This document shows, piece by piece, positions 5,582-24,149 of a stretch of DNA of 64,000 nt. This DNA is from Ideonella livida (GTDB lineage Bacteria > Pseudomonadota > Gammaproteobacteria > Burkholderiales > Burkholderiaceae_C): contig NZ_JAAGOH010000024.1 of the NCBI RefSeq assembly GCF_010499455.1, positions 1 to 64,000 on the forward strand, written 5' to 3'. The number at the start of each line of letters is the position of its first letter. Positions within the stretch are counted from its first letter, which is position 1. The notes beneath the pieces are model-generated. The model did not search any database. It saw nothing but the letters and a program-made list of their open reading frames with translations, and was not told the DNA's origin. A program made the position numbers and the translations under genes.

Positions 5582-6331
5582 ATGCTGTTGAAGAACAAAG
5601 TGGCCCTGATCACCGGCGGCGCCGGCCTGAACGGCCTGGGCTTTGCCACCGCCAAGATGATGGCCGAGCAGGGCGCCACCGTGGTCATCGCCGACCTGGA
5701 GCGCGCCAAACCCGCCGAAGCCGCCGCCCTGCTAGGCGCGCAGCACCTGGGCGTGGTGGCCGACGTGGTGGACAAGGCCTCCTGCGAGCGCGCGGTGGCC
5801 GAGGTGCTGGCCAAGCTGGGCCGCATCGACATCCTGTTCAACAACGCCGGCATCACCCAGCCGCGCAAGACGCTGGACATCACCGGCGCCGACTACGACG
5901 CCGTGCTGGACGTGAGCCTGCGCGGCATGCTGTACATGTCGCAGGCGGTGATTCCGGCCATGCGCGAGCAGAAGTCCGGCTCGATCATCAACACCTCGTC
6001 GGTGTCTGCCCAGCGCGGCGGCGGCATCCTGGGCGGCCCGCATTACTCGGCCGCCAAGGCCGGCATGCTGGGCCTGGGCCGTGCGATGGCGCGTGAGTTC
6101 GGCATCGACGGCATCCGCGTCAACGCCGTCACCCCGGGCCTGATCGCCACCGACATCAACAAGGGCCTGATCCCCGAGGACCGCATGAAGGGCATCCTGG
6201 AGCAGATCCCCCTGAACCGCATCGGCGAGCCCAAGGACGTGGCCGGCTGCGTGGTGTTCCTGGCCTCCGACCTGGCCAAGTACCTCACCGGCGTCACGCT
6301 GGACGTGAACGGCGGCATGCTGATCCATTGA
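5582..6331 (+). CDS. Short-chain dehydrogenase/reductase, putative polyol dehydrogenase
   Basis: A 249-residue classical SDR. It has the NAD(P)-binding motif VALITGGAGLNGLGFATAK, NNAG at about residue 89, and the catalytic Ser and Tyr-x-x-x-Lys in the region TSSVSAQ...HYSAAKAG. The C-terminal GGMLIH end is also typical. The start at 5582 follows a CTGGAGACATGCA ribosome-binding stretch. It opens the operon that continues with a TRAP transporter, a TIM-barrel isomerase and a split transketolase. SDRs here often oxidise an imported sugar alcohol to a ketose (for example threitol to erythrulose), which is the role I infer; the substrate is not readable from sequence. Confidence 0.9.
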   Translation: MLLKNKVALITGGAGLNGLGFATAKMMAEQGATVVIADLERAKPAEAAALLGAQHLGVVADVVDKASCERAVAEVLAKLGRIDILFNNAGITQPRKTLDITGADYDAVLDVSLRGMLYMSQAVIPAMREQKSGSIINTSSVSAQRGGGILGGPHYSAAKAGMLGLGRAMAREFGIDGIRVNAVTPGLIATDINKGLIPEDRMKGILEQIPLNRIGEPKDVAGCVVFLASDLAKYLTGVTLDVNGGMLIH

Positions 6332-6360
6332 TTGGCCCCGGACACTAGGGTTCCACACCA

Positions 6361-6379
6361 CGGCCGCGGCCCGCGGCCG
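6361..6379. repeat. GC-rich perfect palindrome after the SDR gene
   Basis: CGGCCGCGG (6361-6369) and its exact reverse complement CCGCGGCCG (6371-6379) are separated by one base, between the SDR gene and dctP. There is no following T-run, so it is not a classical terminator. It could modulate readthrough or protect an mRNA end, or be chance in such GC-rich sequence. Confidence 0.3.
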
Positions 6380-6500
6380 GGCCATGATCGCCTCCGATCG
6401 TGGCCACCTGGCGGGCCTCACGAGCTGGCGGCGCAGACCGCCGGCCGCACACCACAAGCCACTTTGTGATGCCCCCCGGCATCCCCCGGAGACACTGACC

Positions 6501-23200: not shown

Positions 23201-23407
23201 ACCGTGCCCGACGCCACCCTGGCCGCCTTTGCCGACCACGGCCAAGCCGCCCGCACGCTGGACACCGCGCTGCCCCAGGCCCGCGCCACCCTGGCCGCCG
23301 CCGCAGCCGCCGGCGTGGACCTGAGCGCCGCCGGCGAACGCCTGCAGGCCGAAGGCCTGGCGCAGTTTGAGCAGGCCCTGGAGCGTCTGCTGCAATCGGT
23401 GGTCTGA
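20291..23407 (+). CDS. Transketolase-transaldolase fusion protein
   Basis: A single 1038-residue frame encodes two complete enzymes. Residues about 10-675 are a full-length transketolase: [16 protein letters not shown], the ThDP motif [13 protein letters not shown] with DDNGISIDG, and the central [18 protein letters not shown] short linker (about 677-685) leads into transaldolase (about 686-1038). It has [26 protein letters not shown], the Schiff-base lysine in [15 protein letters not shown] (about 820) and [10 protein letters not shown]. No frameshift or internal stop occurs at the junction. Both reactions shuttle C2 and C3 units in the non-oxidative pentose phosphate pathway, the route for disposing of erythrose 4-phosphate. 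It lies 130 bp after the DhaK-like gene. No good ribosome-binding site precedes the ATG. Confidence 0.93.
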
Positions 23408-23447
23408 CCGGCCCGGCACGCCGCCCCACCCCCAGGAGCCCCTTGAG

Positions 23448-24149
23448 ATGACCTCATCCGCCCCCCGCATCGACGCCGTCGTCTTCGACATGGACGGCAT
23501 CCTCATCGACTCCGAGGTGCTCTGGCGCCAGGTGCGCGAGGAGTTTGCCGCCGACCACGGCCTGGTCTGGTCCGCCGAAGACCAAGAATCCACCATGGGC
23601 TGCAACACCCGAATGTGGAGCCGCATCATGGTGGAGCGCCTGCAACTGCAAGAACGCCTGGGCATGGACGACGCGGCCATCGCCACCGAAATCAAGGCCC
23701 GCCTGCTGCGCAAGTACCAAGCCCACCTGCCCGAGCGCGAAGGCGCTGTGGCCGCCGTCAAGCGCGTGGCCCAGCACTACAAGGTGGCCCTGGCCTCCGG
23801 CTCGCCCAACGAGCTGGCCACCTACGTGATGCAGGCCACCGGCCTGGACCAGGTCTTCCTGGCCGCCACCTACGGCGACGACGTGGTGCACGGCAAACCC
23901 GCGCCCGACATCTACCTCGACGTGCTCGCCAAGATCGGCGTGGCCCCCGAGCATGCCGTGGGCGTGGAAGACAGCGGCAACGGCATCCGCTCGCTGCGCG
24001 CCGCCGGCATGGCCATCATCGCCGCCCCCGGCCCCGAGTTCCCCCTGAGCGAAGACGTGCTCGCCCTGGCCGACGTGCGCATTGACGAGATGCACCAGGT
24101 GACGCCCGAGTTGGTGCAACAGGCCATGGCCCAGCGCGTGCAGCGCTGA
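23448..24149 (+). CDS. HAD-superfamily phosphatase/phosphomutase, beta-PGM-like
   Basis: A 233-residue HAD hydrolase of subfamily IA. Motif I is VVFDMDGILIDSE (nucleophile Asp and acid/base Asp near residue 13), motif II is ALASGSP, the lysine is in VVHGKPAPDIYLD, and motif III is VGVEDSGNGIRS. The helical cap (about 20-90) resembles beta-phosphoglucomutase and 2-deoxyglucose-6-phosphatase relatives. The start follows CCAGGAGCCCCTTGAG and lies 40 bp after the transketolase-transaldolase gene, so it closes this operon. It probably removes a phosphate from an accumulating or damaged sugar phosphate; the substrate is unknown. Confidence 0.88.
   Translation: MTSSAPRIDAVVFDMDGILIDSEVLWRQVREEFAADHGLVWSAEDQESTMGCNTRMWSRIMVERLQLQERLGMDDAAIATEIKARLLRKYQAHLPEREGAVAAVKRVAQHYKVALASGSPNELATYVMQATGLDQVFLAATYGDDVVHGKPAPDIYLDVLAKIGVAPEHAVGVEDSGNGIRSLRAAGMAIIAAPGPEFPLSEDVLALADVRIDEMHQVTPELVQQAMAQRVQR

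Follow-up and report, generated by a model that had tools for sequence, protein, structure and literature searches.

The window analysed here, a 64,000-nucleotide stretch of the Ideonella livida contig NZ_JAAGOH010000024.1, contains an island of catabolic genes that we consider, on balance, to be a sugar-acid breakdown system. A tripartite ATP-independent periplasmic (TRAP) transporter would import the acid, a short-chain dehydrogenase/reductase (SDR) would oxidize it and a split transketolase would carry out a ketol transfer, with a parallel branch formed by a TIM-barrel protein, a DhaK-DhaL fusion kinase and an RpiB-type isomerase. An initial sequence-only reading had assigned the same genes to a tetritol pathway, in which the polyol is oxidized to erythrulose, phosphorylated, isomerized to erythrose 4-phosphate and disposed of through dedicated transketolases. 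Genes were called from an open reading frame (ORF) listing, codon-position GC content and hmmscan searches of Pfam and NCBIfam; the ORF calls and family scans located every gene named in that reading where it had been placed. The genes that carry the argument are:

4455..5351, reverse strand: LysR-type regulator, GcvA-like by hmmscan, just left of the start first assigned to the island and divergent from the SDR gene
5582..6331, forward strand: SDR dehydrogenase, a proposed sugar-acid dehydrogenase (Pfam adh_short_C2; below the DthD cut-off)
6384..7490, forward strand: TRAP receptor DctP1 (TIGR00787, 302 bits; Arg/Arg/Asn motif)
7548..8096, forward strand: TRAP small permease DctQ, called from its position and from an annotated small permease of the Sphaerotilus locus L039, to which it is 74% identical
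8115..9374, forward strand: TRAP large permease DctM (TIGR00786, 425 bits)
9440..10381, forward strand: PF01261 TIM-barrel protein of isomerase/epimerase/decarboxylase type
10378..11271, forward strand: N-terminal, thiamine diphosphate-binding chain of the split transketolase, TK-N (PF00456; 41% to E. coli SE15 AptA)
11268..12290, forward strand: C-terminal chain of the split transketolase, TK-C (PF02779 and PF02780; 31% to AptB; altered active-site motif)
15424..16485, reverse strand: SorC-type sugar regulator (PF04198; 50-52% to the SorC proteins of DhaKL/RpiB clusters L042, L043 and L056)
16495..16983, reverse strand: RpiB-type sugar-phosphate isomerase (PRK05571, 170 bits, over the cut-off; DerI model, 168 bits, under the cut-off)
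17146..18201, forward strand: second TRAP receptor, DctP2, which has no dedicated membrane subunits (TIGR00787, 279 bits; 54% to DctP1)
18361..20160, forward strand: DhaK-DhaL fusion kinase, a proposed erythrulose-type ketose kinase (PRK14479, 623 bits; GHHGEPG motif; tree placement)
20288..23407, forward strand: transketolase-transaldolase (Tkt-Tal) fusion of ordinary pentose-phosphate type (TIGR00232, 910 bits, plus transaldolase models)

The split transketolase recurs as a cassette on plasmids, where 189 of the 192 records matched by TK-C at E 1e-60 or better are at least 60% identical. Twelve TK-anchored plasmid loci of 15-19 kb each, picked by us for variety, were opened from Rhizobium, Neorhizobium, Pantoea (2), Paracoccus, Azospirillum, Klebsiella aerogenes, Caballeronia, Agrobacterium, Bradyrhizobium, Sulfitobacter and Arthrobacter. 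All twelve carry a transporter, which is of the TRAP type in seven and belongs to the major facilitator superfamily (MFS) in five. Eleven carry an SDR related to that of the window (40% in Arthrobacter, 55-64% in the other ten), while K. aerogenes has a 3-hydroxyisobutyrate dehydrogenase (HIBADH)-type enzyme instead. No DhaKL, RpiB or TIM barrel was found in the 15-19 kb fetched for any of the twelve. When the five MFS proteins were scored, the best family was D-galactonate in three (342, 349 and 313 bits) and metabolite/H+ symporter in the other two (368 and 344 bits), with the shikimate transporter second and ProP third. In contrast, an E. coli plasmid cluster that comprises Tkt, Tal, RpiB, an alcohol dehydrogenase (ADH), DhaK, DhaL and SorC (L056) has an MFS protein that passes the ribitol/arabitol model (544 bits, cut-off 375). 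Set against this polyol-type transporter, those of the TK loci indicate that the SDR and split transketolase accompany acid-type transport. The contents of both kinds of locus further indicate that DhaKL, RpiB, Tal and Tkt comprise a separate module, which also serves a polyol-like cluster. Both the co-occurrence of SDR, split transketolase and acid-type transporter and the separate recurrence of the kinase module are observed directly.

The C-terminal chains of the cassette also have an altered active site. In 11/11 chains aligned, the first motif reads APFG, with its arginine lost, and the third reads LPGLTTGYGPSHQ or LPGLTSGYGPSHQ, with the first histidine and GED lost; the second motif retains Ser or Thr, as GLTADL, GLSADL, GMTADL or GMSADL (the Ser of canonical GGSADL is not lost). 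When tested as canonical transketolases, all 11 are thus altered at the Arg, His and Asp substrate positions, which are all kept in the window Tkt-Tal fusion. We take these positions to be R358, H461 and D469 of E. coli transketolase, contacting the sugar phosphate and its hydroxyls. The Tkt-Tal fusion and two enterobacterial Tkts retain the ordinary active-site motifs, and the arginine segment and GED are also retained in PDB 6HA3, presumably human transketolase, and in the general split transketolase of Carboxydothermus; E. coli AptB, like the cassette chains, is without GED. These residue changes suggest an unusual donor or acceptor rather than a general sink for erythrose 4-phosphate. The proposal that the island's transketolase is a mere sink is therefore hard to sustain, given that the split form makes up a self-contained cassette together with an SDR and an acid-type transporter, and has lost active-site residues. 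Nor is a built-in sink the unusual feature it was first taken for, since RpiB, Tal and Tkt also lie beside DhaK-DhaL on one E. coli, one Klebsiella and one Pasteurella record.

The entry step resembles acid uptake more closely than tetritol oxidation. The window SDR fails the GolD/DthD model NF005309 (177.8 bits, cut-off 286), in which the annotated D-threitol dehydrogenase of Shinella, our positive control, scores 408.6 bits; the identity of the Shinella enzyme rests on its annotation and this score. DctP2 aligns without gaps to 4P47 across Arg152, Arg173 and Asn213, keeping all three, and a motif scan found the same Arg/Arg/Asn motifs in DctP1, such that both receptors carry the carboxylate site. 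The nearest solved relatives of DctP1 are 4P47, 4P9K/4PAK, 4PDH, 7BBR and 4PDD. According to the accessible part of the source, Arg152/Arg173/Asn213 (4P47 numbering) form the carboxylate-binding set in related receptors, which have been crystallized with pantoate, erythronate or 2-keto-3-deoxygluconate (KDG) (PMC11668362); because such ligands are often co-purified, they are perhaps not native. All three motif patterns were present in 13 of 18 other receptors parsed and one was missing in five, a count that excludes the short fragments from L027 and L034. A second receptor was not seen in the Sphaerotilus loci L039 and L070. The entry half of the tetritol pathway is thus supported by neither the SDR nor the receptors; judged from receptor residues, the result comes close to acid binding, one of the outcomes that the sequence-only reading had itself named as fatal to it.

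A further acid signature is found in related loci. HIBADH-type dehydrogenases were detected in 9 of 36 such loci, always adjoining TRAP genes (the 36 include some places twice, none of these among the nine), and two more in TK loci L078 and L079. Eight were scored, and L-threonate dehydrogenase was the top NCBIfam hit of each (L025 318, L026 328, L028 333, L034 322, L038 293, L060 284, L078 314 and L079 204 bits). In the second Azohydromonas copy (L015), two altronate/galactarate-dehydratase-type genes and an RraA-type gene lie nearby. The TIM barrel itself gave a single weak match in the NCBIfam scan, 18.8 bits to another family.

Named genomes were searched with the TIM barrel, and the window proteins were then searched by tblastn in the 18 loci obtained, whose taxon labels are Burkholderiales members, other beta-proteobacteria or unplaced Pseudomonadota. 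The SDR (at least 74%) was present in 14, DctM in 16, DhaK-DhaL in 15, RpiB in 13, TK-N in 14, TK-C in 13 and LysR in 13, the last as the divergent neighbor of the SDR in 11. Eight of the 18 hold the full set of SDR, DctM, TIM barrel, DhaKL, RpiB, TK-N and TK-C, and contig ends cut four (L019, L022, L023 and L035). This recurrence indicates that the grouping is more than chance. Six loci (L026-L030 and L034) show in full the most frequent order, LysR / SDR-DctPQM-TIM-DhaKL-RpiB-TKN-TKC, which L022 and L023 follow as far as they extend, whereas L025, L032 and L036 are rearranged. The window differs in having SorC-RpiB and DhaKL-TktTal as a second block, as in Sphaerotilus. Other loci are partial: L031 and L033 comprise SDR-TIM-DhaKL-RpiB alone, L036 has a 35% SDR and no RpiB, and L024 lacks the transketolase, which sits with a second TIM/SDR/TRAP set elsewhere in the same genome (L015). 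RpiB was not seen in loci L020 and L021, but is present in the same species (L039) or on the same contig (L070), which carries SorC, RpiB, the kinase and Tkt-Tal at distances of 8 to 15 kb past TK-C. Among the loci examined, the 1039-residue Tkt-Tal fusion is confined to the window and to Sphaerotilus (L020, L039 and L070), and thus to 1/18 TIM loci (L020). The TIM barrel is rare, with matches of at least 58% identity in 4 of 348 sampled same-family genomes beyond the window's own, weak matches (30-32%) in three more, and no match in any of 15 sampled same-genus genomes.

The downstream half of the tetritol scheme fared better than its entry. DhaK-DhaL passes the general model PRK14479 (cut-off 492), but fails the glycerone-kinase equivalog (343 bits, cut-off 575). 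In a midpoint-rooted FastTree phylogeny of 26 DhaK domains (L026 was excluded for its uncertain start), the window clade includes the kinase beside the annotated D-threitol dehydrogenase in Shinella (L058/L060) and the kinase of the E. coli plasmid cluster. This clade is divided from E. coli DhaK and from the Pasteurella, SorC-fused and TpiA-like-linked Klebsiella kinases by a branch whose local support is 0.999. Every window-clade member detected by motif scan has GHHGEPG spanning its catalytic histidine; at this site L. lactis DhaK (3CT4), the Pasteurella kinase and the Klebsiella kinase have I-H instead. At the level of sequence, the kinase clade and its Shinella threitol linkage favor, without proving, a C4 ketose as the kinase substrate. 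In Shinella sumterensis, the plasmid locus L060 (13955-30784) places an ATP-binding cassette (ABC) importer/D-threitol-dehydrogenase/DhaK-DhaL set next to an SDR/split-TK set with TRAP and HIBADH genes, and a SorC-DhaK fusion regulator and another DhaL lie between the two.

RpiB is less easily placed. It scores 168.1 bits in the D-erythrulose-4-phosphate isomerase (DerI/EryI) model NF051858, below the cut-off of 240, as do the RpiBs of L042, L043 and L056 (168.2, 179.3 and 164.9); an EryI-type protein of R. leguminosarum, encoded beside a TpiA-like gene, scores 257.1 and E. coli RpiB 119.7. It also just misses the strict rpiB equivalog (131.8 against 138.65; E. coli RpiB scores 256), and the RpiB tree groups it with neither EryI-type nor housekeeping RpiB. 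From these scores and the tree, it cannot be called with confidence either an EryI or a housekeeping RpiB. The genome encodes one Dak1-domain kinase and one RpiB, both within the island, and elsewhere RpiA, one TpiA, two more full transketolases and one more transaldolase. The island RpiB and transketolases are therefore additional to the housekeeping set, which makes an exit through erythrose 4-phosphate plausible.

Within the sugar-acid reading, we infer an acid substrate, a ketol transfer, a C4 ketose and the following order of reactions. The TRAP transporter, to judge from its receptor residues and relatives, would import the acid, and the SDR would oxidize one hydroxyl to a ketone, giving a keto compound with two possible fates. 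In the first, the split transketolase would move a C2 ketol unit onto a sugar-phosphate acceptor such as glyceraldehyde 3-phosphate, yielding xylulose 5-phosphate and leaving a shorter aldehyde or keto acid; here the cassette is observed and the chemistry is predicted. In the second, the TIM-barrel enzyme would isomerize or decarboxylate the keto compound to an erythrulose-type four-carbon ketose, which DhaK-DhaL would phosphorylate and RpiB would isomerize to erythrose 4-phosphate. The Tkt-Tal fusion and RpiB would recycle pentose and tetrose phosphates and, from their positions, LysR may control the first module and SorC the second. Our guess at the substrate is either a tetronate or an apionate-like C5 acid that bears a hydroxymethyl branch. 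With 3-oxo-isoapionate as an example of the keto acid, ketol transfer would give xylulose 5-phosphate and hydroxypyruvate, and decarboxylation would give erythrulose and CO2. More tentatively, the cassette may represent a widespread, undescribed route in which a sugar acid, once oxidized, would be the direct substrate for cleavage by a dedicated split transketolase, with no kinase or aldolase. The window would then be an extended form, whose TIM barrel and erythrulose-type kinase drain the same keto acid into erythrose 4-phosphate.

Several observations weigh against the sugar-acid reading. In some genomes the genes for the two fates lie in different operons and may therefore serve different substrates; the Rhizobium loci L038/L059 combine the TIM barrel with DhaKL, and a transketolase was not seen there; neither a transketolase nor TRAP genes were seen in L031 and L033; and the annotated isomerase beside the SDR/TK set of Shinella L060, compared on L058 from the same stretch, does not match the window TIM barrel. 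The chemistry is also constrained, since a C4 keto acid, if decarboxylated, would give dihydroxyacetone and leave RpiB no obvious role, and a linear 3-oxo-pentonate would not be directly usable by a transketolase. The twelve TK loci are not a random sample, every cassette MFS match is below its cut-off, and the metabolite/H+ symporter-type proteins also score with ProP, a betaine carrier. All eight L-threonate dehydrogenase matches are below the curated cut-off of 350, and no such HIBADH-type gene is among the window island genes scanned. Moreover, the part of one survey available to us finds the key Arg in 96.8% of the 6142 TRAP receptors it covers, and the ligands reported for such receptors include at least one non-acid, ethanolamine (PMC5812351).

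The best-surviving alternative, which we nevertheless regard as unlikely, retains the tetritol: the SDR would oxidize a D-threitol-like substrate to D-erythrulose, DhaK-DhaL would phosphorylate this, RpiB would isomerize the product to erythrose 4-phosphate, and the transketolases would dispose of it. The kinase clade and its Shinella linkage are consistent with this, as is the pairing on plasmid L056 of DhaK-DhaL with RpiB, Tal, Tkt, an ADH and a ribitol/arabitol-type MFS, and the D-erythrulose route would need no TpiA-like LerI in a genome with one TpiA only. However, the SDR is under the DthD cut-off, both receptors carry carboxylate residues, and the TIM barrel, which had no role in the scheme as first proposed, would be left unused. 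In addition, SDR and split transketolase occur with TRAP or an acid-type MFS and without the kinase in 11/12 TK loci, and Shinella keeps its D-threitol dehydrogenase and ABC importer as genes separate from the adjoining SDR/split-TK/TRAP set.

A more improbable alternative is a special case of the sugar-acid reading, with DhaK-DhaL as a true dihydroxyacetone kinase. A C4 sugar acid, erythronate or threonate, would be oxidized to 3-oxotetronate, which the split transketolase would convert to xylulose 5-phosphate and glyoxylate, or which would be decarboxylated to dihydroxyacetone for DhaK-DhaL. The erythronate or pantoate found in crystals of receptor relatives and the L-threonate-dehydrogenase-like enzyme of related operons are compatible with such a substrate. 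Yet RpiB, present in 13/18 loci, would be idle unless used for pentose recycling, and the kinase clade stands apart from E. coli DhaK, with the window kinase under the glycerone-kinase cut-off.

Least probable is a D-apiose/apulose-type pathway, in which the TIM barrel would isomerize a branched sugar, DhaK-DhaL would phosphorylate it and the split transketolase would cleave it as AptAB cleaves apulose 4-phosphate. In its favor, the N chain of the split transketolase has 41% identity to AptA of E. coli SE15 and the C chain 31% to AptB, GED is missing from AptB too, and in R. etli, Neorhizobium and Agrobacterium the cassette is followed by a sugar ABC importer (RbsB-like receptor) and a lactonase-like amidohydrolase, both matches under cut-off. 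Against it, such identities are not orthology, the TRAP receptors resemble acid binders, and the E. coli SE15 kinase is of the FGGY type, for which no match was found among 15 genes scanned in 4455-24149 (DctQ was outside the scan).

Comparison with known systems places the sugar-acid reading between several pathways. In the accessible portions of the sources, the D-threitol/erythritol scheme of Mycobacterium smegmatis and Brucella comprises DthD, EltD, LerK/DerK, LerI, DerI and EryA-I (PMC12780249, PMC10733421). With it the island shares a ketose kinase and an RpiB-family isomerase leading toward erythrose 4-phosphate, but lacks a DthD-type SDR and a LerI-like gene and adds TRAP import, a TIM barrel and a dedicated split transketolase. 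The kinases of these pathways are, we assume, of the DAK family. The D-apiose pathway (AplK, AptA, AptB and ApsI; E. coli SE15, Pectobacterium) likewise has a pathway-specific split transketolase and an adjoining sugar-binding (SorC-like) regulator; the isomerase ApsI belongs to the Pectobacterium pathway, as the available part of the source has it (PMC13001218). It differs in its FGGY kinase (AplK) and ribose-type ABC importer, and the E. coli cluster also encodes two putative oxidoreductases. ApsI presumably has a TIM fold as well.

D-apionate degradation employs ApnO, the xylose-isomerase-family decarboxylase OiaC, LerK, LerI and DerI. Likened by description rather than by sequence, it is the closest match for the second branch of the island: an acid is converted to a keto acid and by a TIM-barrel decarboxylase to erythrulose, with a DAK kinase and an RpiB exit. 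The island differs in having no LerI, and an SDR where ApnO would be. Transketolases have also been implicated in catabolism elsewhere; a Gluconobacter transketolase reportedly acts on 5-keto-gluconate, and the sulfo-transketolase pathway is said to use one. By description, these cases share transketolase as the C-C cleaving step of a catabolic pathway, although their substrates differ.

Each kind of enzyme in the island is known, and their combination looks new. We did not find it described in the open-licence PubMed Central (PMC) literature, as far as its accessible text extends, and it may be described in primary papers on apiose, threitol, DUF1537 kinases or TRAP screening. In the annotated records opened, the cassette chains carry only generic transketolase names. 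If correct, the sugar-acid reading would provide a substrate class and a first mechanism for a transketolase cassette that is often found in plant- and soil-associated bacteria. It would also imply that the entry module paired with a C4-ketose kinase module varies, being polyol-like in L056 and in the neighboring set of L060, and acid-like here. The cassette may also be carried by mobile DNA: on the K. aerogenes plasmid (L079, 4990-14972), its MFS gene is followed by an aminoglycoside-phosphotransferase-family gene, a recombinase and a Tn3-family transposase.

Three further genes lie within or at the edge of the island, the first two of them absent from the sequence-only reading:

12370-14397, reverse strand: PAS/hybrid histidine kinase
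14401-15318, reverse strand: RsbQ-like alpha/beta hydrolase
23445..24149, forward strand: haloacid dehalogenase (HAD) phosphatase, HxpB-like (124 bits, under the cut-off of 191)

The HAD phosphatase had no match in L039, L070 or L071 and is probably not a conserved part of the island. The best solved match of the hydrolase is RsbQ 1WOM (266 bits), followed by KAI2 proteins. Situated between the transketolase and the SorC block, the RsbQ/KAI2-like hydrolase and the histidine kinase resemble an RsbQ and PAS-sensor pair, in which the sensor is here a histidine kinase; neither was matched in Sphaerotilus L039. Directly 3' of the island, a second polyol-type cluster occupies 24522-40659 on the forward strand. 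It comprises SorC, a glycerol/maltose-type ABC importer with two ATPases, an FGGY kinase (31465-33081), a 2-hydroxyacid dehydrogenase, a GlpD-like FAD dehydrogenase and a FucA-like aldolase, with an apparent further kinase and aldolase. For handling a polyol, if any genes here do so, this cluster looks better suited than the island.

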